DNA of 64,000 bases from Knoellia sinensis KCTC 19936 (GTDB lineage: Bacteria; Actinomycetota; Actinomycetes; Actinomycetales; Dermatophilaceae), in assembly GCF_000768705.1 (NCBI RefSeq), contig NZ_AVPJ01000001.1, positions 124,001-188,000 on the forward strand, read 5' to 3'. Position numbers and translations under genes: made by a program. The notes beneath the pieces were generated by a model. The model was given only the letters and a program-made list of their open reading frames with translations, had not been told where the DNA came from and searched no databases. This document shows, in pieces, positions 1,212 to 61,828 of this stretch; position 1 is the first letter of the stretch; the number at the start of each line of letters is the position of its first letter.

Positions 1212-1400
1212 GGGTGATTCGACGCCGAAGCGCCGCTCCTTCGTTGTTCTCGTCAGTTGCGTGTGCGGCTCGCATGCCGTCGATCTCAGGGTTCCAGCCG
1301 CTCCACCATGCCGAATGACGCGCGCGATCACAACTTGGACGTATGCCGTCCGCCCGCCTTCGCGAGTCCGCTCCGGTGCGCAGCGCGCACCGACCAGGGA

Positions 1401-2351
1401 TCAGAAACCCAGTCGTTGCAACTGTTTTGGGTCCCGCTGCCAGTCCTTGGCGATCTTCACGTGGAGGTCGAGATGGACCCGCTGACCGAGAAGCTTCTCA
1501 ATCCCTGCACGTGCCGTGGACCCCACCTCACGGAGACGCGAGCCACCGCGCCCGATGATGATCGCCTTCTGCGACGACCGCTCCACGAAGACGTTGACAC
1601 GCACGTCCATGAGGGGCTTGCCCTCCGGACGGTCCGGACGCGGGAGCATCTCCTCGACCACGACAGCGATCGAGTGCGGGAGCTCGTCGCGCACACCCTC
1701 CAGAGCCGCCTCGCGGACGAGCTCGGCGATCATGACGACCTCGGGTTCGTCGGTGAGCACGTCATCGGGATAGAGCGGTCCCGGCGACGCCGGAAGGTAC
1801 TTCGCGAGGACGGCCGCGACCGTGTCGACCTGATCGCCCTTGGTGGCCGAGCACGGGACGATCTCGGCCCAGTCGCCGAGTTGGTCGATGGCGATGAGGT
1901 GCTCGGCCAACCGTTTGCGATCGACCTTGTCGGACTTGGTGGCGAGCGCGATGATCGGCGTGCGCTTGGCCTGCCTGAGCTCGACGAGTTCGCGCGCGAT
2001 GAACTGGTCTCCCGGTCCGATCCGCTGGTCCGACGGGAGACAGAAGCCGACGACATCGACGTCGAGAAGGGTCTCGCGGACGAGGTCGTTGAGACGCTCC
2101 CCGAGCAGGGTCCGCGGCTTGTGCAGCCCGGGGGTGTCGACGAGGATCAGCTGGCTGGTCGGCGACGTGACGATGCCCCGGATGGTGTGCCGGGTCGTCT
2201 GCGGCTTGCTCGACGTGATCGCGACCTTGTCACCCACGAGCGCGTTGGTGAGGGTCGACTTGCCGGCGTTCGGGCGACCGATGAGACAGGCGAACCCAGC
2301 GGCATACGGCTTCTCGGTGGCACCGGAATCGGCGGTGACGGACTCACTCAT
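1401..2351 (-). CDS. era: GTPase Era
   Basis: Ribosome-assembly GTPase that binds the 3' end of 16S rRNA during 30S maturation. G1 is GRPNAGKST near residue 25, followed by a switch region with TTRHT, G3 DTPG near 74, a G4 motif reading TKSD (where NKxD is usual) and G5 CSA. The C-terminal part has the KH-domain stretch IIIGRGGSRLREVG. The 316-residue length is normal. ATG at 2351 is preferred over a GTG at 2357 because GGGAG lies 5 nt upstream of the ATG but abuts the GTG. The start overlaps the end of the upstream CorC-like gene by 8 bp, so the two are translationally coupled. Last gene of the HIT-phoH-ybeY-corC-era operon. Confidence 0.96.
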   Translation of the reverse strand: MSESVTADSGATEKPYAAGFACLIGRPNAGKSTLTNALVGDKVAITSSKPQTTRHTIRGIVTSPTSQLILVDTPGLHKPRTLLGERLNDLVRETLLDVDVVGFCLPSDQRIGPGDQFIARELVELRQAKRTPIIALATKSDKVDRKRLAEHLIAIDQLGDWAEIVPCSATKGDQVDTVAAVLAKYLPASPGPLYPDDVLTDEPEVVMIAELVREAALEGVRDELPHSIAVVVEEMLPRPDRPEGKPLMDVRVNVFVERSSQKAIIIGRGGSRLREVGSTARAGIEKLLGQRVHLDLHVKIAKDWQRDPKQLQRLGF

Positions 2352-3645
2352 GGGCACTCCCGGTCTCGGCTGGCTCCATCATCTCGTGCTCGGACGTCAC
2401 GATGCGCTCCACGATGACCGTGGCGATGCGGTGGCGACGACCGGCCATGCGCTCCGCGGTGAGTCGGAGGCCGGCGACGTCGCATGTCGATCCCAGGATG
2501 GGCACGCGTCCGATGGTCTTGCCGATGAGTCCGCCGACGGTGTCGACCTCGTCCTCCTCGATCGTCACCCCGAGGTGATCCGCGAGGTCATCGATGTCCA
2601 TCGTGGCGTCGACGCGCCAGCGCCCGTCCGGGAGTTCCTCGAGGTCGGGGGTCTCTCGGTCGTACTCGTCCGCGATCTCACCCACGATCTCCTCGATGAT
2701 GTCCTCGATGGTCACCAGGCCGGCCGTGCCACCCCACTCGTCCACGACGAGAGCGAAGTGGGTCTGGTCGCGTTGCATCTCACGCAGCAGGGCGTCGACC
2801 GGCTTGGACTCGGGGATGAACGGCATCGGTCGCATGAGCGCGGCGACCGGCATGGTGGCGCTCGCCGGATCAGACGTGACGCGCCTGACGACGTCCTTGA
2901 AGTAGAGGAGCCCGAGCACGTCGTCGGAGTCCTCACCCGTGACCGGGATTCGTGAATAGCCGCTGCGGAGAAAGAGATTCATCGCCTGTCGTGCAACACG
3001 GTCACTGTCGATCGTCACCATGTCTGTGCGTGGAACCATGACCTCTCTGGCCAGGGTGTCGCCGAGCTCGAAGACCGAGTGGATCATCTGGCGCTCGCCC
3101 GCCTCGATCAGCGACGACTCACCGGCGAGGTCGACCAGGTCGCGCAGTTCGGACTCGCTCTCGAAGGGTCCGTCGCGGTAGCCGCGCCCGGGGGTCACTG
3201 CGTTGGCGAGGACGACGAGGAGCCGTGACAGGGGTCCGAGCAACCGGCGCAGCCAGATCGCGACCGGCGCCGCCACGAGTGCCACTCCGGCGGCGTGCTG
3301 CCCACCGAGGGTGCGAGGTGACACGCCGACGAGGGCAAAGGAGACGACGGCCAGAATCGCGATGGCGATCAGGAGGGGCTTCCACGTCCCGTCGACGGCG
3401 CGGTAGACCGCCGTGGTCACGAGCACTGCGGTGGTCATCTCGGCGATGACACGGACGAACGAGACGACCGAGAGGTATGCCGCGCTGTCACCCACGACCT
3501 TGACCAAGGCCCCCGATCCGGGGCGACCGTCGTCGAGGAGTTCCTGGGCGCGAACCCGCGAGACCCGTTGCAGGGCTGCCTCGGCCGCCGACAGGGCGAA
3601 CGACATCACGAGACCGAGGATGCTGAAGACGACGAGCCTGGTCAT
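2344..3645 (-). CDS. CNNM/CorC-HlyC family membrane protein with CBS domains
   Basis: Membrane protein of the hemolysin/CorC family, implicated in other bacteria in Mg2+/Co2+ efflux or resistance. The N-terminal DUF21/CNNM region (about residues 1-155) has several hydrophobic helices. A tandem CBS pair follows (about 190-320), with MVPRTDMVTI and a long acidic stretch after VVDEWGGTAGLVTIEDIIEE, then a CorC/HlyC C-terminal domain (about 345-425). The 433-residue length is typical. The gene sits between ybeY (48-bp gap) and era (8-bp overlap), the standard actinobacterial arrangement. Metal specificity cannot be deduced. Confidence 0.92.
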   Translation of the reverse strand: MTRLVVFSILGLVMSFALSAAEAALQRVSRVRAQELLDDGRPGSGALVKVVGDSAAYLSVVSFVRVIAEMTTAVLVTTAVYRAVDGTWKPLLIAIAILAVVSFALVGVSPRTLGGQHAAGVALVAAPVAIWLRRLLGPLSRLLVVLANAVTPGRGYRDGPFESESELRDLVDLAGESSLIEAGERQMIHSVFELGDTLAREVMVPRTDMVTIDSDRVARQAMNLFLRSGYSRIPVTGEDSDDVLGLLYFKDVVRRVTSDPASATMPVAALMRPMPFIPESKPVDALLREMQRDQTHFALVVDEWGGTAGLVTIEDIIEEIVGEIADEYDRETPDLEELPDGRWRVDATMDIDDLADHLGVTIEEDEVDTVGGLIGKTIGRVPILGSTCDVAGLRLTAERMAGRRHRIATVIVERIVTSEHEMMEPAETGSAHE

Positions 3646-5685: not shown

Positions 5686-5723
5686 AACCGATCTCGCCCC
5701 TCAGGCGTCTCAGGGACGTGACA

Positions 5724-6266
5724 ATGACTCTCGTGGGGTCACGACGTGACGCAAGAGCGCGCGCCGCCGCCGATGACGGCGTGTCGAGCCTGTATGCCGT
5801 GCACTGGACCCCCATGGTCCGGCTGGCCTGGCTCTTCGTCCACGACGATCTCCTCGCGGAGGAGATCGCCCAGGACGCCTTCATCTCGCTCCATCGGAAG
5901 TGGCACGAGGTCCAGGAAGGCCGCGGTGCGGCATACCTGCGGCAGTGTGTCGTCAACGGAGCGCGCTCCGCGCTCCGGCACCACAAGGTGGAGCAGCGAT
6001 ATCTCGAGTCACTGCCACACGGCACACGTCACCTGAGGGTCGCGAGCGCCGAGGACGAGGCGATCTCGGCGACCGGAGCCGCCGACCTGTTCCACCGCCT
6101 TCAGAAGTTGCCCACGCGTCAGCGCGAGGTGCTGGTGCTGCGCTACTACCTCGATCTCAGTGAGGCCCAGATCGCCGATAGCCTCGGCATCGCGCCCGGC
6201 TCGGTCAAGGCCCATGCCCATCGTGGTCTCGCCGCCCTGCGCACCCAGATGGAGGACCGGACATGA
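5724..6266 (+). CDS. SigE-family ECF RNA polymerase sigma factor
   Basis: Group 4 sigma factor of the actinobacterial SigE-like subfamily, directing RNA polymerase to a small regulon. Region 2 (about residues 20-85) contains LAWLFVHDDLLAEEIAQDAF, and region 4 (about 120-175) contains LPTRQREVLVLRYYLDLSEA followed by an IADSLGIAPGSVKAHAHR helix-turn-helix. The 180-residue length is normal. ATG at 5724 is chosen because AGGGA sits 7 nt upstream; a GTG at 5718 would be too close to it. It overlaps the next gene by four bases (ATGA), so the membrane GerMN protein is co-translated and is the likely signalling partner. It is divergent from the HIT operon. Confidence 0.92.
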   Translation: MTLVGSRRDARARAAADDGVSSLYAVHWTPMVRLAWLFVHDDLLAEEIAQDAFISLHRKWHEVQEGRGAAYLRQCVVNGARSALRHHKVEQRYLESLPHGTRHLRVASAEDEAISATGAADLFHRLQKLPTRQREVLVLRYYLDLSEAQIADSLGIAPGSVKAHAHRGLAALRTQMEDRT

Positions 6267-7392: not shown

Positions 7393-8136
7393 TCAGCGCC
7401 AGCGGGCTGAGGCACTGAGGACGGCCAGCGCGGCAGGTCCTGCACTCGACGAGCGGAGGACCGTGTCGCCGAGGCGGACGATCCGAGCGCCGGCGCTGGC
7501 GAACGCCTCGAGCTCCTGGGGCGCGATGCCGCCCTCGGGACCCACGACGAGGAGCACGTCGCCCTCGTCGGGCAAGGTCTCGGCGGCCAAGGGCAACTGG
7601 GCGTCCTCATGGAGCACGTATGCCGTGACGCCCGCGGCGATGCGCGCCGCAAGTTCGGTCGTGGTCACCACGGGAGCCAGGATCGGTCGACGGGGGCGTC
7701 GAGACTGCTTCGTGGCCGCGATGAGAACGGCATCCCACTTGCGCCATGCCTTGTCCCCGCGATCGCCGCGCCACTGGACGATGCTGCGGCTGGCCTGCCA
7801 CGGCACGACCTCGTCGACGCCGAGCTCGGTGGCCGCCTCGATCGCCTGGTCGTCCCGATCTCCCTTCGCCAGGGCCTGGACGAGCACGAGTCGCGGAGAC
7901 GGGACAGGCACGTCCTCGACGATCTCGACGCGGAGGGTCAGCCGGTCGCGCTCGACGGACTCGACCTCACCCGTGACGAGACGCCCGGCTCCGTCGGCCA
8001 GACGGAGGTGCTCCCCCGGCTGGGTGCGCTTCACCGTGGCAGCGTGGCGGCCCTCGCTCCCGTCGAGCACGACGACATCACCGACGCGAGTCCCGTCGAG
8101 GGTTCCGCCGGCCACGAGGTAGAGGTGGAGACTCAC
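7393..8136 (-). CDS. rsmE: 16S rRNA (uracil1498-N3)-methyltransferase RsmE
   Basis: SPOUT-class methyltransferase that methylates U1498 of 16S rRNA. The C-terminal SAM-binding knot reads LLVVGPEGGIAPQELEAF and then RLGDTVLRSSSAGPAALAVL, the characteristic RsmE signature. The N-terminal PUA-like domain includes GSEGRHAATVKR. Length is 247 residues. The GTG start at 8136 is chosen for AGGAG 7 nt upstream; the frame stays open further but has no better signal. It lies 112 bp downstream of dnaJ on the same strand, the usual hrcA-dnaJ-rsmE order. It converges with the GerMN gene, 8 bp apart. Confidence 0.95.
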   Translation of the reverse strand: MSLHLYLVAGGTLDGTRVGDVVVLDGSEGRHAATVKRTQPGEHLRLADGAGRLVTGEVESVERDRLTLRVEIVEDVPVPSPRLVLVQALAKGDRDDQAIEAATELGVDEVVPWQASRSIVQWRGDRGDKAWRKWDAVLIAATKQSRRPRRPILAPVVTTTELAARIAAGVTAYVLHEDAQLPLAAETLPDEGDVLLVVGPEGGIAPQELEAFASAGARIVRLGDTVLRSSSAGPAALAVLSASARWR

Positions 8137-8159
8137 GCCACCGCTCCTGCGACCGAGCA

Positions 8160-8224
8160 GTGACATGTGGCGGGGCGCGCGCTTGCGACGAAGGAGCAAC
8201 TGAGCGTGCCGTGCCACATGTCAC
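8160..8224. repeat. 12-bp perfect inverted repeat between dnaJ and rsmE
   Basis: GTGACATGTGGC (8160-8171) is matched by GCCACATGTCAC (8213-8224), with 41 bp between. Each arm contains the palindrome ACATGT. There is no T-run, so it is not a typical terminator. It may be a DNA-binding site or an mRNA structure separating dnaJ from rsmE. Confidence 0.6.
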
Positions 8225-9495: not shown

Positions 9496-10527
9496 TCAGT
9501 CAGCCAGGATCCGACTGACGTAGGTCGCGACGGCGCGCACGGCAGCCATCGTCGTGGGGTAGTCCATGCGGGTCGGGCCGACGACGCCCAGGCCGGCGAC
9601 GAGGTCGGACCCCGCGCCATAGCCAGAGGTGACGAGCGACGTCGACTGCAACCCGGCATACGGGTTCTCGGCCCCGATCCGGACCGCAACGGCGTCGCCC
9701 TGATCGGTCACCGTTCCGAGGAGCTTGAGCAGGACGACGTGCTCCTCCAGCGCCTCCAGGACGGGTCCGATCGACGTCGGGAAGTCCTCGCCGGCACGGA
9801 CGAGGTTGGAGGTTCCGGCCATGACGACCCGCTCCTCGCGCTGCTCGACCAGCACCTCGGTGAGCTCGGCCGCGATCGCCGCGAGGAGTCCGCGCGCGCC
9901 GGGGTCGACCTGGATCGGGAGTTCACCGAGCCCCCCGGCGGCATCCGCCAACGTCTTCCCCACCGTGGCGCGGTTGACGTCGGCCCGGAGGGACGCAAGC
10001 ATCCGCTCGGCCGTCGGATCGGTGAGGTCCGTGCCCGTCTCGAGGACCCGCTGCTCGACGCGCCCCGTCGTCGTGATGAGGACGACGAGCAGACGGGTTG
10101 CGCCGATGGGCACGAGCTCGATGTGCCGGACCGAGGACCGGGTGAGCGATGGGTACTGCACCACGGCGACCTGACGAGTCAGCGATGCGAGGAGCCGGAC
10201 CGTCCGGTCGACGACGTCATCGAGATCGATGGCGCCGTCGAGCAACGTGCTGATGGCGCGCTTCTCGGCACCGCTCAAGGGCTTGACCGTGGTCAGCCGG
10301 TCGACGAAGAGCCGGTAGCCCGCGTCGGTCGGGATGCGACCCGCGCTCGTGTGCGGCGCCGCGATCAGACCTTCCTCCTCGAGGGCGGCCATGTCGTTGC
10401 GCACGGTGGCGGCCGAGACCCCGAGCTGGTGACGCTCGAGCAGGGCCTTGGACCCCACCGGCTCGGACGTCTCGACGTAGTCCTGGACGATGGCCCGCAA
10501 CACCGCGAGCCGACGATCCTCACTCAT
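9496..10527 (-). CDS. hrcA: Heat-inducible transcription repressor HrcA
   Basis: Repressor of class I heat-shock genes that binds CIRCE. The N-terminal winged helix (about residues 1-75) includes [19 protein letters not shown] and [33 protein letters not shown] follows, then the GAF-like HrcA core. The 343-residue length is normal. ATG at 10527 has AGGGAGG 8 nt upstream. A CIRCE element begins 21 bp upstream of the start, so autoregulation is expected. The next gene is dnaJ. Confidence 0.96.
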
Positions 10528-10574: not shown

Positions 10575-10583
10575 TTCTACGTC

Positions 10584-11521: not shown

Positions 11522-11667
11522 ACAAGCACGGTGGGTATGCCGTGTGCGCGCCTTCCGCGGCAGGGTCACCCCTGATCCCACCCTGATCACACCCCGAACG
11601 GGGGATGAAACGTGCTCTCGATGGGTTTCACTGGGAGACAGCACCCCGTCCCCTGAAGGAGGACACC

Positions 11668-15557: not shown

Positions 15558-16784
15558 TCAGGTCTCGACGCCGAGCAGCCGGCGGACGACCGTGTCGGCA
15601 AGGAGTCGGCCGCGCAGGGTGAGAACGACCCGACGGTCGCGGACGGCTGCAGGCCCCTCGATGAGTTCGTGGGCAACCAGTCCGGCGACAGCGCGCCGGC
15701 CGACGTCGTCGAGTTCGTCGATCGACAGGCCATCGCGAACGCGCACCTGCAAGAGCACCTTCTCGTCCCGCAGTTGCTCGGTCGTCAACGTCTCCCGACC
15801 TGCAGCAGGAGAGAGCCGCTCGGCCAGCCGGCCGGCATACGCCCTCGGGTGCTTGACGTTCCACCACCGCACGCCGCCCACGTGGCTGTGCGCTCCCGGA
15901 CCCACTCCCCACCAGTCGCCACCGGTCCAGTAGCCGTCGTTGTGCCTGCACCGGCCGGCAGGCGTCCGCGTCCAGTTGCTCACTTCGTACCACCCGAACC
16001 CCGCCGCGGAGAGCGCCTCCTCCGCCAGTTCGTACTTCGTCGCCTCATCGTCGTCATCGGGGCGCTCGACCTCACCGCGTCGCACCTGGGAAGCCAGCTT
16101 CGTTCCCTCCTCGACCACGAGCGCGTAGGCCGAAATGTGCTCCGGCTCAAGGGAGATCGCGGCATCGAGACTGGTCTGCCAATCGTCCACGGACTCCCCC
16201 GGTGTCCCATAGATGAGGTCGACACTCGTCACGAGGCCGGCTGCCTGCGCCGCCATGACCGCACGACCGACTCCCTCCGGGTCGTGCGTCCGGTCCAACG
16301 TTGCCAGGACGTGTGGGACAGCGGACTGCATGCCGAGCGAGATGCGCGTGAATCCCCCGTCCGCGAGTTCCTTCAGGGAGTCCGGCGTCACCGAGTCCGG
16401 GTTCGCTTCGGTGGTCACCTCGACGTCATCGGCCAGGCCAAACCGATCTCGTATGCCGTCCACGGCCTTCACGAGATCGGCTGCGGCGAGCATCGTCGGA
16501 GTGCCGCCGCCCACGAAGATCGTGTCGACCTCCGGTGCGGCATCGCCGAGCACCGACTGCGCGAGGTCGAGCTCGGCCATGGTGGTGTCGACGAACGTCG
16601 ACGTGCTCGCGCCCGGCCCGAGCTCGGTCAACGTATAGGTGTTGAAGTCGCAGTAGCCGCACCGCACGCGGCAGAACGGCACGTGCAGGTAGACGCCGAA
16701 GGGACGCTCCCCCAACCCTGCGAGCGCGGACTCCGGGAGCTCACCCGAGTCCGGGGCCGGGTCTCCATCGGGCAGTCGGGGCAT
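15558..16784 (-). CDS. hemW: Heme chaperone HemW (radical SAM, coproporphyrinogen-oxidase-like)
   Basis: Radical SAM protein now regarded as a heme-transfer chaperone rather than a coproporphyrinogen oxidase. The cluster motif CRVRCGYCDF (about residues 37-46) is preceded by GVYLHVPF. IFVGGGTPTML, TEANPDSV, ISLGMQS and DLIYGTPGE are the family's conserved blocks, and a HemN_C domain closes the protein. Length is 408 residues. ATG 16784 is selected because GAGGA lies 8 nt upstream. Only 3 bp separate its stop from the convergent NTT-like gene. Confidence 0.95.
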   Translation of the reverse strand: MPRLPDGDPAPDSGELPESALAGLGERPFGVYLHVPFCRVRCGYCDFNTYTLTELGPGASTSTFVDTTMAELDLAQSVLGDAAPEVDTIFVGGGTPTMLAAADLVKAVDGIRDRFGLADDVEVTTEANPDSVTPDSLKELADGGFTRISLGMQSAVPHVLATLDRTHDPEGVGRAVMAAQAAGLVTSVDLIYGTPGESVDDWQTSLDAAISLEPEHISAYALVVEEGTKLASQVRRGEVERPDDDDEATKYELAEEALSAAGFGWYEVSNWTRTPAGRCRHNDGYWTGGDWWGVGPGAHSHVGGVRWWNVKHPRAYAGRLAERLSPAAGRETLTTEQLRDEKVLLQVRVRDGLSIDELDDVGRRAVAGLVAHELIEGPAAVRDRRVVLTLRGRLLADTVVRRLLGVET

Positions 16785-17121: not shown

Positions 17122-18060
17122 GTGCGCATCCTCTCTGACGCCGACGTCCGCGCCAACCTCCCACCACTGGTCGAGGTCGTCGACCTGGTGGCCGACGCGC
17201 TCACCGCCCTCGCCGAGGGACGCGCCGACGTGCCGCCGAAACCGACCGTTCGCACCTCCCCCGGCATGTTCGCCAACGCGATGCCTGCCGCCTACCCGGA
17301 GCGAAACCTGTTGGGCTGCAAGTGGATCAGCATCGTCCCCGACAATCCAGTGCGTGGCCTGCCGACCGCGAGTGGCGTCATGGTGGTCAATGACGGAGCG
17401 ACCGGTGTCCCCCGCACGCTGCTCCCCGCCCACGAACTCACGGCCGTGCGCACGGCCGCCGTGACCGGCGCGTGCATCCGGGCGCTTGCGGGCCCTGATG
17501 CGACGATCGCCTACCTCGGCGCCGGGCTCCAGGCCGGCTCGCACGTCCGGATCCTCGAGGCGCTCGGCCACACGGAAGTCACAGTGTGGGCGCGCCGCCG
17601 CGAGGCGATCGACGCCTTGGTGGCGGAGGCGGCGAAGGCCGCACCCGGCATACGAATCATCGCCTCTCCCTCCCGAGAGGCGGCCGTACGGAACGCGGAC
17701 GTGGTCATCTCCGGACTCACGATCGGCCTCACCGACATGGCGATCCCGGTGACGTGGCCGCGCGAAGACGCACTGCTCCTGCCCATCGACTACGGCAGCT
17801 CGATCGGTTCGGACCTCGCCGACACCGCAGTTCTTGCTGCTGACGACCCCCACCAGTTCGCCGCGGTTCGCGCCGTGAGGGGCAAGCTCGACGGATACCC
17901 GGTGCCGACGGCCTGGACGGGCCACCTCCTGCACGGCCCACGCCCTTCCGGAAGGCTTGTCGTGCAGAACCTCGGCACGGGGATCACGGATCTTGTCGTG
18001 GCAAGCGCCGTCGCCGATCGCGCCGAGGCGTCAACGACTGGTCAGGTCCTCGACATCTAG
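17122..18060 (+). CDS. Ornithine cyclodeaminase/mu-crystallin family protein
   Basis: NAD(P)-dependent member of the ornithine cyclodeaminase/mu-crystallin/alanine dehydrogenase superfamily, 312 residues. The Rossmann motif YLGAGLQAGSHVRILEAL begins near residue 132. The N-terminal half has conserved GCKWISIVPDN and MVVNDGATGVPRTLL, and ELTAVRTAAVTG carries the substrate-binding Arg. Whether it cyclises ornithine or reduces imines/keto acids cannot be read from sequence. The GTG start follows TAGGTT by 7 nt (leaderless). It is followed 18 bp later by a tyrosine phosphatase gene. Confidence 0.88.
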   Translation: MRILSDADVRANLPPLVEVVDLVADALTALAEGRADVPPKPTVRTSPGMFANAMPAAYPERNLLGCKWISIVPDNPVRGLPTASGVMVVNDGATGVPRTLLPAHELTAVRTAAVTGACIRALAGPDATIAYLGAGLQAGSHVRILEALGHTEVTVWARRREAIDALVAEAAKAAPGIRIIASPSREAAVRNADVVISGLTIGLTDMAIPVTWPREDALLLPIDYGSSIGSDLADTAVLAADDPHQFAAVRAVRGKLDGYPVPTAWTGHLLHGPRPSGRLVVQNLGTGITDLVVASAVADRAEASTTGQVLDI

Positions 18061-20412: not shown

Positions 20413-20461
20413 CTTCCCGGTATGCCGGGCGCTCGCCACTCGTGGCCACCCTCACCTGCGC

Positions 20462-23130: not shown

Positions 23131-23178
23131 ACGAGAGGGGTATGCCGTGGTGCGACACGGCATACCCCTCTCGTTTTC
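23131..23178 (+). terminator. Intrinsic terminator with a 19-bp stem
   Basis: Perfect arms 23131-23149 and 23156-23174 enclose a 6-nt loop and are followed by a T-tract, with AAAA before the left arm. Each arm contains one GTATGCCG, in opposite orientation. Confidence 0.92.
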
Positions 23179-25032: not shown

Positions 25033-25075
25033 AACGACACAATGCCCTCGCGTATGCCGTGTGCTCCCCCGCCGC

Positions 25076-31435: not shown

Positions 31436-34152
<2,717 letters not shown>

Positions 34153-38904: not shown

Positions 38905-38910
38905 ACGTCG

Positions 38911-45970: not shown

Positions 45971-45992
45971 GCGTCTCTGCCCGCGTATGCCG

Positions 45993-49460: not shown

Positions 49461-50060
49461 TCAGTCGCGCTGGTGCTCTGGGGTGGCATCGAGGGCCTCG
49501 CGGATGACCCGCATGGACACCTCCGAGGGATAGCCCTTGCGTGCGAGGAGCCCTGCGAGCCGTCGCATCTGCACCGTCCGATCAAGCCCGTGCAGTCGCC
49601 GCAGACGCTTCTCGACGAGGTCGCGGGCACGCTCCTCCTCGCCAGCCGGGTCGACGTCGTCGAGCACCGACTCGGCCACCTCGTCGCTGACACCCTTCTG
49701 GCGCAGGTTCTGAGCGAGCGCTCGACGCGCCAGCCCACGGCCCGCCTGCTGCGAACGGACGAGCATGCCGGCGTAGGCCGCGTCGTCGACGAGGCCGACC
49801 TCTTCCATGCGGTCCAACACGCCGGCCGCGACGTCGGGGGCGCAGCCACGCTTGGCGAGGGCCTGTTCGAGTTGGGCGCGGGACTTGGGGGAGTTCGTCA
49901 ATTGCCGCAGAACGATCTGCCGAGCGACGTCGTGGGCGTCCGGCTCGACTCCCACCGTCGCTGGGTCGGGCTGAGGCGGCTGAGGGACCGAGGGTGGGGT
50001 CTCACGCCGCGTCCCCGCCGCCCACTCGGGCGGCGGGGACGCAACGTCCGCGAACGGCAT
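49461..50060 (-). CDS. recX: Regulatory protein RecX
   Basis: Modulator of RecA filaments. 199 residues with an N-terminal Pro-rich extension (about 1-38) and RecX helical repeats: ARQIVLRQLTNSPKSRAQLEQAL, shown here by the RQLTNSPKSRAQLEQAL core, GVLDRMEEVGLVDD and NLRQKGVSDEVAESVL. AAGGA about 9 nt upstream supports ATG 50060, which itself lies inside a GTATGCCG octamer. It follows recA by 17 bp and is co-transcribed. Confidence 0.94.
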   Translation of the reverse strand: MPFADVASPPPEWAAGTRRETPPSVPQPPQPDPATVGVEPDAHDVARQIVLRQLTNSPKSRAQLEQALAKRGCAPDVAAGVLDRMEEVGLVDDAAYAGMLVRSQQAGRGLARRALAQNLRQKGVSDEVAESVLDDVDPAGEEERARDLVEKRLRRLHGLDRTVQMRRLAGLLARKGYPSEVSMRVIREALDATPEHQRD

Positions 50061-50077
50061 ACGACGTGGTCCTTGAC

Positions 50078-51462: not shown

Positions 51463-52365
51463 GTGACGATCATTGCGGCAGCGGACGGTTCGGCCCTCGG
51501 CAACCCCGGGCCCGCGGGATGGGCGTGGTACGCCGACGACAGCCACTGGGCCGCGGGCGGGTGGCCGCACGGCACGAACAACCAGGGCGAACTCACCGCC
51601 GTCCTCGACCTGCTGGAGCAGACCGCCGACGTCGACGACGACCTCGTCATCTATTGCGACAGCACCTACGTCATCAAGTCGATCACCCAGTGGATGCCCG
51701 GGTGGAAACGCAAGGGGTGGAAGAAGGGCGACGGCAAGCCCGTCATGAACCTCGAGATCATGCAGGCGCTCGACCGTGCCATGGCCGGGCGCCGGGTGCG
51801 ATTCGAGTGGGTCAAGGGCCACTCGGGACACGAGCTCAACGAGGAGGCGGACCGGCTCGCCAACGGCGCCGCCACGGCATACCAGAAGGGCATGGCACCC
51901 GATCCTGGGCCCGGGTGGGCGGGGCGCGAGACCGCTCCCCCGACGCGACCCTCACCGAGCGTGCCCACCGCCGCCGAACCGGCGGAGCCGGACCTCTTCT
52001 CGGAGGTCGCCGATGACGCGCCCTCCCTCACCGACGAGGAACAGGTCATCGCCCTGGAGCGCTCCCTGCTCACCGATGAGGTTCGTGGCGACTCCGCCGC
52101 CGTGGCCGCCCTGCTCCACCCCCAGTGGTCCGAGGTCGGCCGGTCCGGGCGGCTGTGGACGCGCGACGAGATGCTCGACGAGATCGGCCCCTTGGGCGTG
52201 GAGCACTCGCTCGACGTCCTTGCCTGTATGCCGGCCGGTCCCGACACGATGCTGCTCACCTGGCGCTCGGTGGCCGACTCGGGTCCGACCCTGCGATCGT
52301 CGGTGTGGGTGCGTGCGAACGGCCACTGGCAGCAGCTCTTCCACCAGGGCACCCCGGAGGCCTGA
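51463..52365 (+). CDS. RNase H type 1 fused to an NTF2/DUF4440-like domain
   Basis: 300 residues. Residues 1-140 are RNase H1: catalytic Asp8 (AADGS), Glu43 (NNQGELTA), Asp66 (YCDSTYV) and Asp130 (NEEADRLANG) with VKGHSG at 118-122. A Pro/Glu-rich linker (about 145-185) leads to a DUF4440/SnoaL-like domain (about 190-300) with ALERSLLTDEVRGDSAAVAA and LHPQWSEVGRSGRLWTRDEML. The first part should cleave RNA in RNA-DNA hybrids; the second is often a ligand-binding or structural cone. GTG 51463 gives the usual MTIIAAADGS start; an ATG at 51445 is possible. It shares the recA upstream region. Confidence 0.88.
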   Translation: MTIIAAADGSALGNPGPAGWAWYADDSHWAAGGWPHGTNNQGELTAVLDLLEQTADVDDDLVIYCDSTYVIKSITQWMPGWKRKGWKKGDGKPVMNLEIMQALDRAMAGRRVRFEWVKGHSGHELNEEADRLANGAATAYQKGMAPDPGPGWAGRETAPPTRPSPSVPTAAEPAEPDLFSEVADDAPSLTDEEQVIALERSLLTDEVRGDSAAVAALLHPQWSEVGRSGRLWTRDEMLDEIGPLGVEHSLDVLACMPAGPDTMLLTWRSVADSGPTLRSSVWVRANGHWQQLFHQGTPEA

Positions 52366-53741: not shown

Positions 53742-53747
53742 CAACCC

Positions 53748-54335: not shown

Positions 54336-55603
54336 CCGGGTCTCACGTGCGCCAAAGTCGGCGCAGTCTCTACGGCATGCTCGTGGCCTCGAGCGTGTCC
54401 ATCGCGGGCACCCGTGTCTCGACGATCGCCATCCCGTGGTTCGTCTACACCCAGACGAGGTCACCCGCGCTCACCGGTCTCGTCCTCACGGCCGAGATGG
54501 CGCCCTACGTCGTGTCCAAGGCTCTCGGAGGGCCTCTGGTCGACCGGCGTGGGCCGCGCACGATCAGCATTCTGGGCGACATCATCAGTGGCGCCTTCCT
54601 GGCCCTGATCCCGATTCTGTATGCCGTGGGTCAGCTCGATCTTCCGGACAGGGTTCCGCTGCTGCTCGCCCTCGTCGCCCTCGCCGGCGCCTTCCGTGGC
54701 CCCGGGGATGGCGCGCGCAACGCGATGATCCCGGCAGTGGCCGACGCATCGGGCGTCAGCGTCGAGCGCATCACCGGACTCGACGCCACGATCGACCGCG
54801 CCAGCGGGCTCCTCGGGGCCGGGGTCGGAGGCTTCCTCGTCGCGGGCTTCGGTGGAGCGCAGACCGTCGCGGTGACCGCCGCCGCGTCCCTCGTGAGCGC
54901 GCTCGTGGTCGCCCTCTTCGTCCCGCGCGCCCCCATGGGCGACACCGAGGAAGCGGGCAGCTACCTCGTCCGCCTCCGAGCCGGAGCCTCGTTCCTGCGC
55001 AAGGACCGACTGCTGCGAGCAGTCCTCCTCATGATCGCCGGGACCAACCTCCTCGAGGCCGCCTACATCTCGGTGATGCTCCCGGTCTGGGTCAGTGCCA
55101 ACGGCTACGGTCCCGAGATCATCGGCCTCCTGGGCCTCCTCTACGGCGGATCGGCGGTGCTCTCCAGTGCCGCTGCGACGACAGCGGCAGGGCAGTTCAG
55201 CCGCCGCACGGCCTATCTCCTCGGCTTCACCCTGGCCGGTGCCCCGCGCTACCTCGCGCTGGCATTCGGCGCTCCCCTCTGGGTCATCATCGTGTGCAAC
55301 GTCGTCGCGGGTCTCGGCGCCGGCTTCATCAACCCCACGATCAGCGCCATCTTCTTCGAGCGGGTCCCGCGCCACCTCGTCGGTCGCGTCGGATCGCTTG
55401 CCGATGCGGTCGCCTGGACGGGCCTGCCCCTCGGCGGGATCGTGGGCGGCGCCGCCGTCACCGCGGTCGGGGTGTCGCCAGCGCTGGGTGCGGCGGGGGC
55501 GGCATACCTCGTCTCGACCGCGCTGCCGGGGATGCGACCGGAGTGGCACGAGATGGACCGTGCGCGTCCGTCTGCGAAACCTGCGCAGGGCGCTGATACC
55601 TGA
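54332..55603 (+). CDS. MFS transporter (MFS_3/enterobactin-exporter-like)
   Basis: 423-residue 12-helix major facilitator. LVASSVSIAGTRVSTIAIPW is the first helix region, and the A-loop reads GGPLVDRRGPRTISILGD, equivalent to the MFS G-x3-D-R-x-G-R motif. LDATIDRASGLLGAGVGGFL and the second-half GQFSRRTAYLLGF follow. The group includes drug and macrolide exporters; the substrate is unknown. The GTG at 54332 overlaps the ArsR stop (GTGA), implying co-regulation by that repressor. Confidence 0.92.
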   Translation: MTGSHVRQSRRSLYGMLVASSVSIAGTRVSTIAIPWFVYTQTRSPALTGLVLTAEMAPYVVSKALGGPLVDRRGPRTISILGDIISGAFLALIPILYAVGQLDLPDRVPLLLALVALAGAFRGPGDGARNAMIPAVADASGVSVERITGLDATIDRASGLLGAGVGGFLVAGFGGAQTVAVTAAASLVSALVVALFVPRAPMGDTEEAGSYLVRLRAGASFLRKDRLLRAVLLMIAGTNLLEAAYISVMLPVWVSANGYGPEIIGLLGLLYGGSAVLSSAAATTAAGQFSRRTAYLLGFTLAGAPRYLALAFGAPLWVIIVCNVVAGLGAGFINPTISAIFFERVPRHLVGRVGSLADAVAWTGLPLGGIVGGAAVTAVGVSPALGAAGAAYLVSTALPGMRPEWHEMDRARPSAKPAQGADT

Positions 55604-55644: not shown

Positions 55645-58600
55645 ATGACGGCAAACGTGCTCGAGCGCTTCTCTCCGGCCACCGCGACGTGGTTCCGGGA
55701 CTCCTTCAGTGCGCCCACGGCCGCGCAGTCGGGCGCTTGGGAGGCCATCAGTTCCGGTCATCACTCACTGGTCGTCGCACCCACGGGCTCGGGCAAGACC
55801 CTGTCGGCCTTCCTCTGGGCGCTCGACCGTCTCGGGACCGACCCCCTCCCGGAGGAGAAGCTCCGTCGCTGCCGCGTCCTCTACGTCTCGCCCATGAAGG
55901 CTCTTGCGGTCGATGTCGAGCGCAACCTGCGCAGCCCCTTGGTCGGCATCGGTCACGCCGCCGCCCGACTGGGGCTCAAGCAGCGCGACATCACCGTGTC
56001 GGTGCGCAGCGGCGACACCCCGGCGGGCGAGCGCCGCGCCTTTGCGCGGACCCCGAGCGACATCCTCATCACGACACCCGAGTCGTTGTTCCTCATCCTC
56101 ACGTCACAGGCCCGCGAGGCACTGCGCGGGGTCGAGACGGTCATCCTCGACGAGGTCCATGCCGTGGCCGGCACCAAGCGTGGTGCGCACCTCGCACTGT
56201 CCCTCGAGCGGCTCGACGCCCTTCTCGATCGGCCGGCACAGCGCATCGGCCTGTCCGCGACGGTCGAGCCGGTCGACGAGGTGGCGAGATACCTCGCGGG
56301 TGGGCGTCCGGTCGAGATCGTGAGGCCACCGTCGACCAAGGAGTGGGAGCTCGACGTCGTCGTCCCCATCGCCGACATGTCGTCCCTCGGGGAAGTCATC
56401 GAGGATGACCTCAGTGGGCCCGCGTCGGGAGCCGAGCGCAGGGCGTCGATCTGGCCGCACGTCGAGGAGCGCATCGTCGATCTCGTGGCGGCACACCGCT
56501 CAACGCTCGTCTTCGCCAACTCTCGACGGTTGGCCGAGCGGCTCACGGCCCGACTCAACGAGATCTGGGAGGAGCGGCTCGCCGCTGCCGCCGAGTCGCC
56601 CGACGCCGACGGTGACATGGGCACGGAGGTGAGCGGACGGCATACGGGCTCTTCCGCGTCCCTCCGAACTCCGGCCCAGGTCATGGCGCAATCGGGGAGC
56701 TCGATGGGGGCTGCGCCGGTCCTCGCGCGCGCCCACCACGGGTCGGTGAGCAAGGAGCACCGCCAGCTCATCGAGGAGGACCTCAAGGCCGGTCGGCTAC
56801 CGGCCGTCGTCGCCACGAGCAGTCTTGAGCTCGGCATCGACATGGGCGCGGTGGACCTCGTCGTGCAGGTCGAGTCCCCTCCGTCGGTGGCGTCCGGGCT
56901 GCAGCGGGTCGGGCGGGCAGGGCACCAGGTCGGTGCCGTGTCCCAAGGTGTCCTCTTCCCGAAGTTCCGCGGGGACCTCGTGCAGACCGCCGTCGTCGTG
57001 GAGCGGATGCGCGCGGGCGCCATCGAGTCGCTGCGCGTTCCCGCGAATCCGGTCGACGTGCTCGCGCAACAAGTGGTCGCCATGACCGCGGTGGACGACT
57101 GGACCGTGGACGAACTCGAGCAGGTCGTCCGCCGCGCGGCGCCCTTCGCCTCACTCCCCCGATCGATCCTCGACTCCGTCCTCGACATGCTGTCCGGGCG
57201 CTACCCCAGCGACGAGTTCGCCGAGCTTCGCCCACGCATCGTCTGGGACCGGGTGACCGGTGTGCTGTCCGGACGGCCGGGCGCCCAGCGGCTCGCGGTG
57301 ACGTCCGGCGGGACGATCCCCGACCGCGGTCTCTATGCCGTGTTCCTCGCCACGGGCGAGGGCACGGGACGCCGGGTCGGCGAACTCGACGAGGAGATGG
57401 TCTACGAGTCGCGCGTCGGCGACGTCTTCACCCTGGGCACCTCCACCTGGCGGATCGAGGACATCACCCACGACCGGGTGTTGGTGACACCCGCCCCGGG
57501 CGTACCCGGGCGCCTGCCCTTCTGGAAGGGCGACCAGTTGGGCCGCCCCGCGGAGCTCGGCAAGGCCGTAGGCGCCTTCGTGCGTGAAGTCGCTGCGGCA
57601 ACGCCAGAGCAGGCCCGCTCCAGAGTCGCCTCGGCCGGACTCGACGCGTGGGCCACCGACAACCTCGTGGCCTACCTCGACGAGCAACGCGCCGCCACCG
57701 GTCACGTTCCCGACGACCGCACGATCGTCGTCGAGCGCTTCCGCGACGAGATCGGCGACTGGCGCGTGGCGGTTCACAGCCCGTTCGGCGGTCAGGTCCA
57801 CGCACCGTGGGCGCTCTGCGTCTCGGCCCGGATGCGCGAGCGCTTCGGCGTCGACGTGCAGGCAATGCACGGGGACGACGGCATCGTCTTCCGCCTGCCG
57901 GACCTCGAACTCGACGACGAGCAGCTCGGCGGTCGCGGTGCAGCCACTGAGCTGCTCGACCTGGTGCGCCTCGACCCCGACGACGTGCACGACCTCGTGA
58001 CCGGCGAGATCGGTGGCTCCGCGCTCTTCGCAGCACGCTTCCGCGAGTGTGCGTCGCGAGCACTGCTCCTCCCCCGCCGCCGGCCGGATCGCCGACAACC
58101 GCTCTGGCAGCAACGCCAGCGCGCGGCGCAGCTCCTTGAGGTGGCGAGTCAGTACGCCTCGTTCCCCATCGTCCTGGAGACCGTGCGCGAGTGCGTTCAG
58201 GACGTGTTCGACGTCCCGGGACTGACCGCACTCATGTCGTCGATCGCCTCTCGCGAGGTGACCCTCGTGGATGTCGAGTCGGCGCAGCCCTCGCCGTTCG
58301 CCCGCTCGCTCATGTTCGGCTACGTCGCGCAGTTCCTCTACGAAGGCGACTCGCCACTGGCGGAGAAGCGGGCTGCAGCGCTCTCCCTCGATCCGACCCT
58401 CCTCGCCGAGTTGCTGGGCCGGGGTGAGGGCCTGTCCCTGCGGGACCTCCTCGACCCCGAAGCCGTCACCCGCACCGAAGCCGAGCTGCAGCGGCTCGCG
58501 GAGGATCGTCGGTGTCGCGATGCGGAGGACGTGGCCGATCTGCTTCGCACCCTGGGTCCGCTGTCACTCACCGAAGTCACCCGCCGCACCCGCGCCGGGT

Positions 58601-60384
58601 CGACCGCCCGCGACATCGGATCCTGGCTCGTGGACCTCGAAGGGGCGCGGCGGATCATTCGGGTTCGGATCGCCGGTGAAGAGCGGTGGGCCGCGATCGA
58701 GGATGCCTCCCGACTGCGCGACGCACTCGGGGTTTCGCTGCCCGTCGGGGTTCCTCAGGCCTTCCTCGAGTCCGTCCCCGACCCGCTCGGCGACCTCGTC
58801 GCGCGCTACGCCCGCACCCACGGCCCCTTCAGCGCGTCGGCCGTTGCTCACTGGTGGGGCGTGGGGCCGGCGGTCGCCGTCGATGCCCTCCGACGCCTCG
58901 TCTCCGCCGGCCGGGTCGTCGAGGGTGAGTTACTGCCCACCGAGAGCGGCGGTGGTGCGCACGGGCTCGACTACTGCGACGCGGAGGTCCTGCGCACGCT
59001 GCGGCGGCGATCCCTCGCCGCCCTGAGGGCCGAAGTGGAGCCGGTCGCCGCGGTCGAGCTCGCTCGTTTCCTCCCCCAGTGGCAGTCCGTCGGCGGCGGA
59101 CTTCGTGGGCGGGAAGGCCTCATCCGAGCCGTCGAGCAACTCGCCGGGGCCGTGCTGCCCGCCAGTGCGCTCGAGAGCTTGGTGCTTCCCGTGCGAGTGG
59201 CCGGCTACACACCGGCGCTCCTCGACGAGCTCATGAGCGTCGGCGAAGTCGTCTGGCGGGGCCACGGGTCGCTGCCCGGCGACGACGGCTGGGTCTCGTT
59301 GCACCTTGCCGACACCGCACACCTCACGATGGCCCCACCCGAGGACGGTGAGCTCGGCGATCGGGCGGAAGCGGTTCTCGAGGTCCTCTCCCGTGGTGGC
59401 GCCTACTTCTTCCGCGCCCTCGCCGACGCCGTCGAGGCAACGGACGCCGAGGTGGTCGACGACCTGTGGGCGCTCGTGTGGTCGGGCCATGTCGCAGGCG
59501 ACACCTTCGCGCCTGTTCGCGCGTTGCTCGCCGGTGGTCGGACCGCGCACAAGCGCGCGACGTCCGGCCCTCGATCGACAAGGTATGCCGGCCGCTCCGG
59601 TTCGCTGGGCACCCTGGGTGGGCGTCGCGGCGCCTCTCGTCCTCTCACCGTCACCCGGTCCGCACCCGCAGTCGTGGCGGGCCGATGGTCCGTGCTGCCC
59701 GAGGTCGAGACGGACACGACCGTGCGAACCTTGGCGACGGCGGAGATCCTCCAGGACCGCTACGGCGTGCTCACCCGGGGCAGCGTGGTCGCCGAAGATG
59801 TGCCTGGTGGATTCGCGGCGGTTTATCGCGTGCTCGCGGCGGCTGAAGAGTCGGGGCGCGTGCGTCGCGGCTACTTCGTGGAGTCGCTGGGGGCAGCCCA
59901 GTTCGCCACCACGGGTGCCATCGACCGCCTGAGGGCGGGCGCCCGAACGCTCGGTGCCCCCAGCGACCCCTCCGGCCAGCGGGCGCTGGTCCTGGCTGCG
60001 ACCGACCCGGCCAACGCCTATGGCGCAGCCCTGCCGTGGCCCGTCCGACCCGTGCCCGATGGCAGCGACGAAACCACCGGAGCAACCCGGTCCGGACACC
60101 AGCCCGGACGCAAGGCCGGCGCGCTGGTGATTCTCGTCGACGGTGACCTCGTCATCTACGTCGAGCGAGGCGGCAAGACACTGCTCTCGTGGACCGACGA
60201 CCCGGTGCATCTCCAAGCCGCGGCCGACGCCTTGGCACTCGCGGTGCGTGAAGGTGCCCTGGGCCGGCTCACCGTCGAGAAGGCCGATGGTGGCGCGCTC
60301 CTGGGCTCCGGCCATCCACTCGTCGATGCTCTGGCGCAGGCGGGGTTCCACGCCACTCCCCGGGGCCTTCGACTCCGAAGGTGA
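55645..60384 (+). CDS. lhr: Long-form Lhr ATP-dependent helicase
   Basis: 1579-residue 3'-5' superfamily 2 helicase active in DNA repair. The Lhr core has Walker A VVAPTGSGKTLSAFLWALD (about 46), VILDEVHAVAGTKRGAHL, the motif III LSATVEP, and motifs V-VI SLELGIDMGAVDLVVQ and RVGRAGHQVG. A winged-helix and beta-barrel part (about 440-850) follow, then the long C-terminal domain found in mycobacterial-type Lhr. A low-complexity insert at about 315-350 contains a GTATGCCG copy. It lies 6 bp upstream of nei2, a conserved pairing in actinobacteria. Confidence 0.96.
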   Translation: MTANVLERFSPATATWFRDSFSAPTAAQSGAWEAISSGHHSLVVAPTGSGKTLSAFLWALDRLGTDPLPEEKLRRCRVLYVSPMKALAVDVERNLRSPLVGIGHAAARLGLKQRDITVSVRSGDTPAGERRAFARTPSDILITTPESLFLILTSQAREALRGVETVILDEVHAVAGTKRGAHLALSLERLDALLDRPAQRIGLSATVEPVDEVARYLAGGRPVEIVRPPSTKEWELDVVVPIADMSSLGEVIEDDLSGPASGAERRASIWPHVEERIVDLVAAHRSTLVFANSRRLAERLTARLNEIWEERLAAAAESPDADGDMGTEVSGRHTGSSASLRTPAQVMAQSGSSMGAAPVLARAHHGSVSKEHRQLIEEDLKAGRLPAVVATSSLELGIDMGAVDLVVQVESPPSVASGLQRVGRAGHQVGAVSQGVLFPKFRGDLVQTAVVVERMRAGAIESLRVPANPVDVLAQQVVAMTAVDDWTVDELEQVVRRAAPFASLPRSILDSVLDMLSGRYPSDEFAELRPRIVWDRVTGVLSGRPGAQRLAVTSGGTIPDRGLYAVFLATGEGTGRRVGELDEEMVYESRVGDVFTLGTSTWRIEDITHDRVLVTPAPGVPGRLPFWKGDQLGRPAELGKAVGAFVREVAAATPEQARSRVASAGLDAWATDNLVAYLDEQRAATGHVPDDRTIVVERFRDEIGDWRVAVHSPFGGQVHAPWALCVSARMRERFGVDVQAMHGDDGIVFRLPDLELDDEQLGGRGAATELLDLVRLDPDDVHDLVTGEIGGSALFAARFRECASRALLLPRRRPDRRQPLWQQRQRAAQLLEVASQYASFPIVLETVRECVQDVFDVPGLTALMSSIASREVTLVDVESAQPSPFARSLMFGYVAQFLYEGDSPLAEKRAAALSLDPTLLAELLGRGEGLSLRDLLDPEAVTRTEAELQRLAEDRRCRDAEDVADLLRTLGPLSLTEVTRRTRAGSTARDIGSWLVDLEGARRIIRVRIAGEERWAAIEDASRLRDALGVSLPVGVPQAFLESVPDPLGDLVARYARTHGPFSASAVAHWWGVGPAVAVDALRRLVSAGRVVEGELLPTESGGGAHGLDYCDAEVLRTLRRRSLAALRAEVEPVAAVELARFLPQWQSVGGGLRGREGLIRAVEQLAGAVLPASALESLVLPVRVAGYTPALLDELMSVGEVVWRGHGSLPGDDGWVSLHLADTAHLTMAPPEDGELGDRAEAVLEVLSRGGAYFFRALADAVEATDAEVVDDLWALVWSGHVAGDTFAPVRALLAGGRTAHKRATSGPRSTRYAGRSGSLGTLGGRRGASRPLTVTRSAPAVVAGRWSVLPEVETDTTVRTLATAEILQDRYGVLTRGSVVAEDVPGGFAAVYRVLAAAEESGRVRRGYFVESLGAAQFATTGAIDRLRAGARTLGAPSDPSGQRALVLAATDPANAYGAALPWPVRPVPDGSDETTGATRSGHQPGRKAGALVILVDGDLVIYVERGGKTLLSWTDDPVHLQAAADALALAVREGALGRLTVEKADGGALLGSGHPLVDALAQAGFHATPRGLRLRR

Positions 60385-61257: not shown

Positions 61258-61261
61258 CGAC

Positions 61262-61828
61262 CTACTCGGGCGAGTTCGCCGCTCGGCGGAGGATGCCCTC
61301 GACGACCTCGGACTTGGCGTCGGCGTAGTCCTGGACGAACCGCCAACGGCGCGCGGCGAGCTCGCGCTTCACCGCGGCATACCGGTCCCGGTCTTCGGGG
61401 TGGGTCCGGAGCCAGTCACGGAAGCCGAGCAGTCGGGCGATCTCCGCAGCGCCGACATCGGGCGCCAGCACGTGCAGGTTGATGTCGTGGTCCGATCCGC
61501 GGGCGACTCGCTGGTAGAGGACGCGGTGCTCCAGCCACTCGGGCTCGCGAACCTGGAGCCAGTAGCCGAGCGGCTCGAGCGCCGGCACATAGACGTGCTC
61601 GTCCGCCGCGTCGGGCACCTGAATCAGGATGTCGATGACCGGCTTGGCCGCCAGACCGGGGACCGAGGTCGACCCGACGTGGTCGACGGCGAGGGCCGAT
61701 GCGCCCACTGCGGCACGGATCTCTGCCGCGTCCGATGCGTAGCGCGCAGCCCACTGCGGATCGGGGTCGCAGATGACGACCGGCACGGAGAACGGCTCCG
61801 GAGGCTCCCCCACGATGGGCGCAGCCAC
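61262..61828 (-). CDS. GrpB family (nucleotidyltransferase-fold) protein
   Basis: 188-residue GrpB/DUF UPF0157 family protein with a nucleotidyltransferase-like fold. ALAVDHVGSTSVPGLAAKPV and IDILIQVPD carry the GS-x10-D-x-D pattern, and SDHDINLHVLAP and FRDWLRTHPEDRDRYAAVK are the family's C-terminal blocks. Some relatives are fused to dephospho-CoA kinase. Substrate unknown. The GTG at 61828 lies 11 bp after the clgR stop on the same strand. It converges with nei2, 4 bp apart. Confidence 0.92.
   Translation of the reverse strand: MAAPIVGEPPEPFSVPVVICDPDPQWAARYASDAAEIRAAVGASALAVDHVGSTSVPGLAAKPVIDILIQVPDAADEHVYVPALEPLGYWLQVREPEWLEHRVLYQRVARGSDHDINLHVLAPDVGAAEIARLLGFRDWLRTHPEDRDRYAAVKRELAARRWRFVQDYADAKSEVVEGILRRAANSPE

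Follow-up and report, generated by a model that had tools for sequence, protein, structure and literature searches.

Uptake words have so far been reported in two Gram-negative families. Their hallmarks, as given in excerpts of PMC2397512 and PMC3630211, are a spacing near 1.5 kb, inverted pairs at terminators, conserved sites, dialects and absence from recently acquired genes. The uptake signal sequence (USS) of the Pasteurellaceae is described in part of PMC12616744 as a core word with an extended motif, occurring in two dialects and having a receptor that was long unknown. The transformation apparatus of Micrococcus luteus consists of Tad/Flp pili, ComEA and ComEC (PMC4322843, in part), and HIP1 of cyanobacteria (GCGATCGC) is a palindrome that has been discussed together with methyltransferases (PMC4390886, in part). 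Here, we have analysed the octamer GTATGCCG in a stretch of 64,000 nucleotides from Knoellia sinensis KCTC 19936 (contig NZ_AVPJ01000001.1, positions 124,001 to 188,000; hereafter, the window), in a 462-kb sample of the same genome (the window and 398 kb more), in the whole assembly and in related genomes. We propose, with a probability of about 0.72, a DNA uptake sequence that has GTATGCCG at its core and would label DNA as "self" when members of this actinobacterial family (Dermatophilaceae) undergo natural transformation.

As far as the excerpts cited above describe it, the DNA uptake sequence (DUS) of the Neisseriaceae, with its receptor ComP, resembles GTATGCCG in several respects. The mean spacing is one word per ~1.6 kb (vs. 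~1.5 kb), both words form inverted pairs and have dialects, and the absence of the DUS from recently acquired genes may have a parallel in the scarcity of GTATGCCG in low-GC stretches. The words themselves differ (GCCGTCTGAA in the Neisseriaceae, GTATGCCG and its variants here), the present hosts are actinobacterial and they carry Tad genes, with no sign of a ComP-type pilus. Type IV pilus markers were missing in the K. sinensis genome and in most of the family, which is why we do not assign GTATGCCG to the DUS-ComP system. A core word with an extended motif and dialects is also what the Pasteurellaceae USS offers in the part of the source seen; unlike it, GTATGCCG has a GC-rich downstream stretch and an upstream A-rich patch, and its actinobacterial hosts mostly lack type IV pilus markers. 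The likeness to M. luteus, known here from genes alone, lies in tadA, tadB, tadC, tadE, comEA and comEC. In the portion of the M. luteus paper available (PMC4322843), the terms "uptake sequence," "uptake signal" and "sequence-specific" appear nowhere and no uptake word is mentioned. Like HIP1, GTATGCCG is an octamer repeated at high genome frequency, but it is not its own reverse complement, as the initial annotation of the window had already stated.

That annotation had counted 36 copies of GTATGCCG in the window, 18 per strand, and estimated a ~16-fold excess. Both values were reproduced (36 vs. 2.35 copies expected from base composition), and every position it had named was among our matches. 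Dinucleotide shuffles of the window (n = 100) gave a mean of 0.61 and a maximum of 3 copies, and GTATGCCG was the most deviant 8-mer of the window under an order-2 Markov model (1.08 expected). The whole 3.99 Mb assembly contained 2485 copies (1251 forward and 1234 reverse) and 68 copies (35 + 33) of the reversed word, which is a weak control. The 462-kb sample held 260 copies vs. 12 under an order-3 model, and none of the one-letter neighbours of GTATGCCG was comparably enriched there. The matches listed by a literature search with the bare octamer were, judged by title, unrelated.

The initial annotation had also named a codon-aware count as the test of its claim. The 362 predicted genes of the 462-kb sample contained 183 copies, and synonymous-codon shuffles (n = 30) gave 14.1 on average and never more than 23. 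The excess thus persisted, and codon or dipeptide usage was ruled out as its cause on these 462 kb. Genic copies occupied all frames and both senses, 102 of them running with the gene and 80 against it. Called genes of the same sample had 0.48 copies per kb, and the DNA outside them had about twice that density (0.94 per kb), with some "noncoding" sites falling in missed genes because the gene calls (83% coding) were home-made; gene calls and logos were obtained with our own scripts. GTATGCCG therefore behaves as uptake sequences do in being a short, non-palindromic, genome-wide word that goes beyond what composition and codon use (the latter for 462 kb) allow, and in using both strands equally, in genes as well as in intergenic DNA.

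We have then considered the arrangement of the copies in the 462-kb sample. Neighbouring copies less than 80 bp apart formed 17 pairs, vs. ~11 at random by our own estimate. Ten pairs were placed head-to-head with a spacing of 18-38 bp (vs. ~0.8 by hand estimate) and could form hairpins; nine of these were noncoding by our gene calls. Inverted pairs of this terminator-like shape are frequent among uptake words. The noncoding sites shared the extended consensus GTATGCCG-TCCGCTCRCCT and an A-rich patch 7-12 bp upstream (-7 to -12), and a T was retained at positions 9 (53%) and 19 (43%) of the coding sites. T9 was common to Knoellia and the genomes G029 and G027, and G028 and G023 had another flank.

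The sites were maintained between species. At the comEC locus, 41 of the 47 K. sinensis sites that aligned to eight congeneric species were intact, vs. 15-20% of all aligned octamers at this locus within the genus. This maintenance, the synonymous-codon null and the use of all frames and senses backed selection on the DNA, as the initial annotation had suggested, or drive. Other pairs of loci gave 12/12 (L114 to L115), 10/12 (L115 to L147) and 5/9 (L114 to L146) intact sites, and the tad locus gave 5/6 (L207 to L209), 2/4 (L207 to L208) and 2/3 (L208 to L209). Against other genera, intact sites numbered 3/5 (G029), 1/5 (G020) and 0/4 (G009).

The word was depleted where the DNA was low in GC, which we used as a proxy for recent acquisition in place of a core/accessory split. 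Among 92 windows of 5 kb, the six with less than 65% GC averaged 0.33 sites, and the other 86 averaged 2.8-3.5 by group. Eight gaps between sites exceeded 6.3 kb in the 462 kb. Four of them (61-65% GC) made up the two longest site-poor stretches (~20 kb and one site each), which carried polysaccharide-cluster genes as read by eye from protein starts, the way in which the gene content of all gaps was judged. A similar depletion was found beside a break in the tadA gene of G015, where the contig held one octamer at ~9.8-20 kb, behind the break, vs. 56 at 17-77 kb (60 kb).

One-letter variants, namely GGATGCCG, GTATGACG, GTATGCGG and GTACGCC(G), replaced or accompanied GTATGCCG in some genomes, and dialects between related taxa are again found with uptake sequences. 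By whole-genome counts, GGATGCCG was abundant and strand-balanced in genera g17, g26 and g54, with 2099-4480 copies vs. 200-439 for controls (G024, 3816; G084, 3838; G033, 3949; G095, 4480; G096, 3619; G097, 2195; G098, 2099). A weaker excess, ~4 times the control, was found in G009 (1336) and G194 (1210), G009 being a less certain case because G213 reaches 1239 and G019 and G011 have similar ratios. Genus g54 was mixed: G097 had 1217 copies of GTATGCCG and the above 2195 of GGATGCCG, and G095 had 361 and 4480, respectively. GTATGACG reached 1954 copies in G034 and 1557 in G011, strand-balanced in both, 834 in G012 and 597 in G019, with lesser counts in G013 (347) and G025 (344) and fewer than 90 in other genomes; the genomes bearing GTATGACG held GTATGCCG too. 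The dialects of G027, G030 and G031 come from 53-60 kb samples. In G027, GTATGCGG occurred 22 times vs. 1.3 expected (in genes, 17 vs. 1.7 by the codon-aware null). GTACGCC(G) was the variant of G030, as GTACGCCG (32 vs. 6.7; in genes, 26 vs. 8.5), and of G031, as CGTACGCC (41 vs. 7.4; in genes, 31 vs. 8.4), and other words ranked equally high when these two genomes were rerun. G020 had GAATGCCG (12 vs. 0.6 in 20 kb) beside GTATGCCG. No clear dialect was found in 60 kb each of G010, G016, G017, G018, G021, G026 and G035, nor in 20 kb each of G014 and G022.

To delimit the distribution of the word, we have searched 186 genomes of the family from 53 genera, and a genome was taken as enriched when it reached 100 copies per Mb or more and no less than twice the reversed control. 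By this definition 108 of the 186 genomes and 31 of the 53 genera were enriched, with a maximum of 1356 per Mb. The distribution was bimodal, since 69 genomes had fewer than 50 copies per Mb (median 10) and 9 were intermediate. Within a set of 58 genomes (K. sinensis and relatives), all nine of Knoellia were enriched, the other genera of the family were patchy and none of the 22 genomes of other families was enriched for GTATGCCG. Thirteen named genomes (two of Cellulomonas and one each of Actinomyces, Sinomonas, Brevibacterium, Planctomonas, Glaciihabitans, Rothia, Alloscardovia, Nocardioides, Arachnia, Mycobacterium and Streptomyces) had 20-176 copies vs. 6-203 of the reversed word. A RecA scan of named genomes gave 80 loci, none with more than two octamers; its best matches were actinobacterial, with none assignable to the family by name, and the plasmid matches listed for RecA included no close relative. 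G131, G078 and G154 contained 19, 37 and 50 copies of GTATGCCG despite belonging to enriched genera and showed no clear excess of GGATGCCG, so that they may have lost the word or use another dialect. Bearers and non-bearers interleaved in a single-gene ComEC tree, which was built by a quick method, was weak at 10 of its 37 inner branches and paired G024 with G033 (98%) and G011 with G034 (99%).

In other families of the order, convincing words of their own came from G055 and G044 only. G055, of another family, had GGATGCCTC in genes 33 times vs. 1.7 by synonymous shuffle (small sample), an over-representation of CGGATGCCTC above the codon-aware null (80-kb sample; L152, L185-L187) and 1548 copies of GGATGCCG vs. 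184 for the control. G044, of a third family, had GCCGATGCG 21 times vs. 3.6, above the codon-aware null (40-kb sample; L194-L195). A moderate excess of GC-rich words was seen in G036 (CGGCGTCC, 35 vs. 11-12) and G037 (CGACGCCG, 39 vs. 13), and G039-G043, G046, G048, G053 and G054 gave no convincing word. Phages were rejected as carriers. Among 10 viral stretches with a match to the 18-base pattern GTATGCCGTSCGCTCRCC, nine had 0.07-0.38 octamers per kb; L236 (5.4 kb of a 40-kb viral contig) had the host density of 0.55 per kb and may be host flank or a bearer phage.

The genes of an M. luteus-type apparatus (Tad pilus, comEA and comEC) were present. Pfam confirmed ComEA (SLBB + HHH), ComEC, TadA (T2SSE), TadC (T2SSF) and TadE in the K. 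sinensis genome, and tadB was read from the tad locus. Small pilin ORFs (~55-89 aa) were seen by eye between tadC and tadE of relatives; that of K. sinensis was not called by our script. ComEC (PF03772) and TadE (PF07811) were each found in 57 of the 58 genomes and, being near-universal, were discarded as discriminators of bearers. ComEA matches lay beside ComEC in all 40 comEC loci examined. The comEC gene of G025 (L133), a genome with a word density of 298 per Mb, matched in two frames and is a possible pseudogene, frameshift or assembly error. Type IV pilus markers were found in 13 (PilM_2) and 12 (N_methyl) of the 58 genomes and in none of Knoellia. Among the 36 family genomes of the set, PilM_2 was restricted to G027 (weak) and G032, and N_methyl pilins to G013 and G032. 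With its markers missing from most of the family in this search, involvement of a type IVa pilus was rejected, and the same marker search gave no ComP-type receptor, i.e., a type IV pilus minor pilin.

The core tadA gene, located near prfB in K. sinensis, was searched in 50 hand-picked genomes, of which 48 from the family were counted, leaving out G142 (73% complete) and G055. It was absent, with paralogues or remnants only, in G014, G021, G022, G071, G099, G126 and G138, and none of these seven had an excess of GTATGCCG (7-95 copies) or of GGATGCCG. The other 41 had the gene whole or in pieces, and 23 of them (22 when G009 is excluded) carried GTATGCCG or a dialect (Fisher p = 0.0099, uncorrected for kinship or choice of genomes). 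The gene was in pieces in G015 (11 kb apart), G035 (35 kb), G203 (8 kb), G077 (13 kb) and G028 (three contigs), and just its 3' part was found within the 20 kb examined of G002 and G006. The breaks were at differing positions across genomes (e.g., near 9850 in L220 and near 12780 in L222), and serine recombinase genes lay at the break in G015 and G028. These observations lend circumstantial support to Tad acting in transformation. Disruption of competence genes by mobile DNA has precedents in other organisms. An excerpt of PMC12955456 describes comEC disrupted by mobile DNA in Piscirickettsia.

Of the alternative explanations, the one that survives best is that GTATGCCG serves chromosome architecture, being bound about every 1.6 kb by the sequence-specific domain of a nucleoid protein, an SMC loader or a chromosome organiser. 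Its density, genome-wide spread, coding and noncoding occurrence and maintenance would also fit this role, as would the counts per 5-kb window, which are somewhat evener than random (variance/mean 0.75). However, dialect drift at thousands of sites and a mixed genus are hard to explain if all sites are needed together, some members of the enriched genera g25, g52 and g68 have background-level counts, and terminator-like inverted pairs are a hallmark of uptake words. We therefore regard this explanation as unlikely.

Still less probable is a Chi-like or KOPS-like signal read by a helicase-nuclease or a translocase in recombination or segregation, despite the resemblance of an abundant, lineage-variable and non-palindromic octamer to Chi. 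Chi and KOPS signals are strand-biased with replication. Strand use was even: the forward orientation accounted for 18 of the 36 copies in the window and for 99 of 200 sites in 362 kb taken from a single 588-kb contig, and the whole-genome strand imbalance did not exceed 9.2% across the 108 enriched family genomes. This balance disfavours a Chi or KOPS signal, and the 260 copies found for 12 expected are, to our knowledge, a large excess for Chi. The candidate roles proposed initially thus fared differently: the uptake-type sequence was favoured by the evidence, and the segregation site was not. Equally improbable in our view is a role in methylation or defence, with GTATGCCG kept abundant to label host DNA as the target or self-marker of a methyltransferase or of a system that is BREX-like or has an asymmetric type III site. 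A short asymmetric site with patchy, lineage-specific presence would suit it; we know of no such system that enriches its sites in this way, and the terminator-like pairing and the extended flanks would be left unexplained. Finally, the word could be what is left of a mobile or REP-like element, or a by-product of codon or dipeptide use. The intergenic hairpins agree with this to some extent, but it is hardly credible against the synonymous-codon null, eight strong bases with weak flanks, the use of all frames and the maintenance of sites between species.

Other observations count against an uptake sequence itself. The four remaining gaps of the 462-kb sample (6.4-8.0 kb) have an ordinary GC content of 68-69% and, by eye, one contains ESX-type short proteins and three are not island-like. 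The overall spacing of the sites is near random (CV 1.03), and the extended flanks vary among genera. In G023, G075, G076, G079 and G102, which belong to the 108 enriched genomes, the excess over the reversed word is only 2.5-3.2-fold. Conversion in place was rare, with 0/8, 1/11 and 1/16 aligned sites between three Knoellia (g1) species and G009; elsewhere it was 2/4 (G019 to G027) and 2/19 (G011, for GTATGCCG, to G034). It was consequently rejected as the usual route between dialects, and since aligned sites are seldom converted, turnover is implied. G024 and G033, both with GGATGCCG, share 3 of 11 aligned sites (reverse, 3/12), far below g1. In addition, none of the words described here turned up in 18 of the 41 family genomes that have core tadA. 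Two of these, G072 and G026, are intermediate, and for twelve (G131, G154, G078, G193, G203, G110, G111, G115, G133, G136, G072 and G129) the tests covered just GTATGCCG and GGATGCCG. Gene presence thus fails to separate bearers from non-bearers and picks out no receptor. We found no uptake or transformation experiment for these genomes, and, judged by titles and abstract openings, none of the open-licence PMC papers listed by our searches reports an uptake word in Actinomycetota.

The 36 copies in the window were located by sequence match ("gene" denotes our gene calls; "mechanical" ORFs come from the ORF list, outside those calls; signs give the strand). The intergenic and start-codon copies were as initially described. 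Intergenic uptake-type octamers lie at 1341..1348 (+; GTATGCCGTCCG), 11535..11542 (+), 20420..20427 (+), 25052..25059 (+) and 45985..45992 (+), the last one at the 3' end of the radical-SAM gene 45993-47654(-). Two more form a terminator-like composite hairpin at 23132..23173, whose arms (23132-23149 and 23156-23173) were read from the sequence, with AAAA directly upstream and TTTT directly downstream; the left arm contains the octamer 23140..23147 (+) and the right arm 23158..23165 (-). Start codons are covered at 38899..38906 (-), in gene 37837-38904(-), assigned to GNAT in the initial annotation, and at 50055..50062 (-), in recX (49461-50060, -). The longer GTATGCCGTGTG is indeed common to the copies at 11535, 25052 and 41003.

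Within genes, the first part of the window has octamers at 2300..2307 (-) in gene 1401-2357(-), 3475..3482 (+) in 2344-3645(-), 5792..5799 (+) and 5929..5936 (-) in 5718-6266(+), 7618..7625 (+) in 7393-8217(-), 9654..9661 (-) in 9403-11475(+), 15833..15840 (-) and 16451..16458 (+) in 15558-16850(-), 17646..17653 (-) in 16990-18060(+) and 19707..19714 (-) in 19462-19911(-). These are followed by 23603..23610 (-) in 23191-23664(+), 28615..28622 (-) in 28187-30466(-), 32671..32678 (+) and 33714..33721 (-) in 31432-34152(-), 35122..35129 (+) in 35051-37654(+) and 38950..38957 (+) in the hflX-type GTPase gene 38941-40422(-). The mechanical ORF 40438-41145(-) contains 40832..40839 (-) and 41003..41010 (+). 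Further on, copies are found at 42054..42061 (+) in gene 41079-43016(-), 45196..45203 (-) in gene 44933-45718(-), 51875..51882 (-) and 52226..52233 (+) in ORF 51259-52365(+), 54619..54626 (+) and 55500..55507 (-) in the mechanical ORF 53627-55603(+), 56638..56645 (-) and 59583..59590 (+) in gene 55645-60384(+) and 61375..61382 (-) in gene 61262-61828(-).

Other repeats were noted in the same DNA. An intergenic tandem repeat at 37665-37825 of the window (period 43, 3.7 copies) contains the palindrome CCAATTGG, which also occurs 17 times in an array of 29-bp period on K. sinensis contig C2 (57133-57597) and as single dispersed copies elsewhere in the 462-kb sample. A second dispersed repeat is built around CGACTTTGTGCCC(N)2TTGGGACA, e.g., at window positions 12226 and 12290, mostly as close copies of opposite orientation ~50-65 bp apart; ACTTTGTG, from the same repeat, has 18 copies in the 462 kb. 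A 33-bp tandem repeat (45708-45781, 2.2 copies) lies inside the small ORF 45697-45924, whose protein has repeated KDLA-EHGDKA units at its start.

Our observations cover the abundance of the word, its balance between strands, its inverted pairs and longer consensus, the upkeep of its sites within the genus, its scarcity in low-GC DNA and its dialects, together with the presence of tad, comEA and comEC genes. As the hallmarks of uptake words are present, the one concerning acquired DNA by proxy, we read GTATGCCG as an uptake-type word of Gram-positive bacteria with Tad pili. By analogy, the best reading is that it would work like the DUS or the USS; the uptake bias, the receptor, the competence of these organisms and the drive are what we infer. 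Competent cells would bind free DNA through an extracellular receptor with a preference for the word; its likeliest candidates are a minor pilin of the conserved Tad/Flp pilus and ComEA. The bound DNA would enter through ComEC and be recombined by RecA. Because word-bearing fragments would enter more often, the word would spread and be maintained by biased recombination and selection. It would settle on both strands, in permissive spots of shared genes and at terminators, stay rare in recently acquired DNA and drift together with the receptor, so that genera would come to differ by one-letter dialects.

Self-DNA recognition in transformation would probably have its third lineage here, the first among Gram-positive bacteria and one that relies on Tad/Flp rather than type IV pili. 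Such a system would extend over much of a family and shift its dialects fast, and it might have a wider range within the order, as the small samples of G055 and G044 suggest. The mobile elements that break tadA would then be a counter-move against it. If true, a third, Gram-positive case with a different pilus would mean that the trait evolved again, and natural transformation would be predicted in a large actinobacterial family. The dialects, the absences and the mixed genus would serve as natural replicates for weighing molecular drive vs. selection for self-recognition, and the search for a DNA receptor of the Tad pilus would become concrete.

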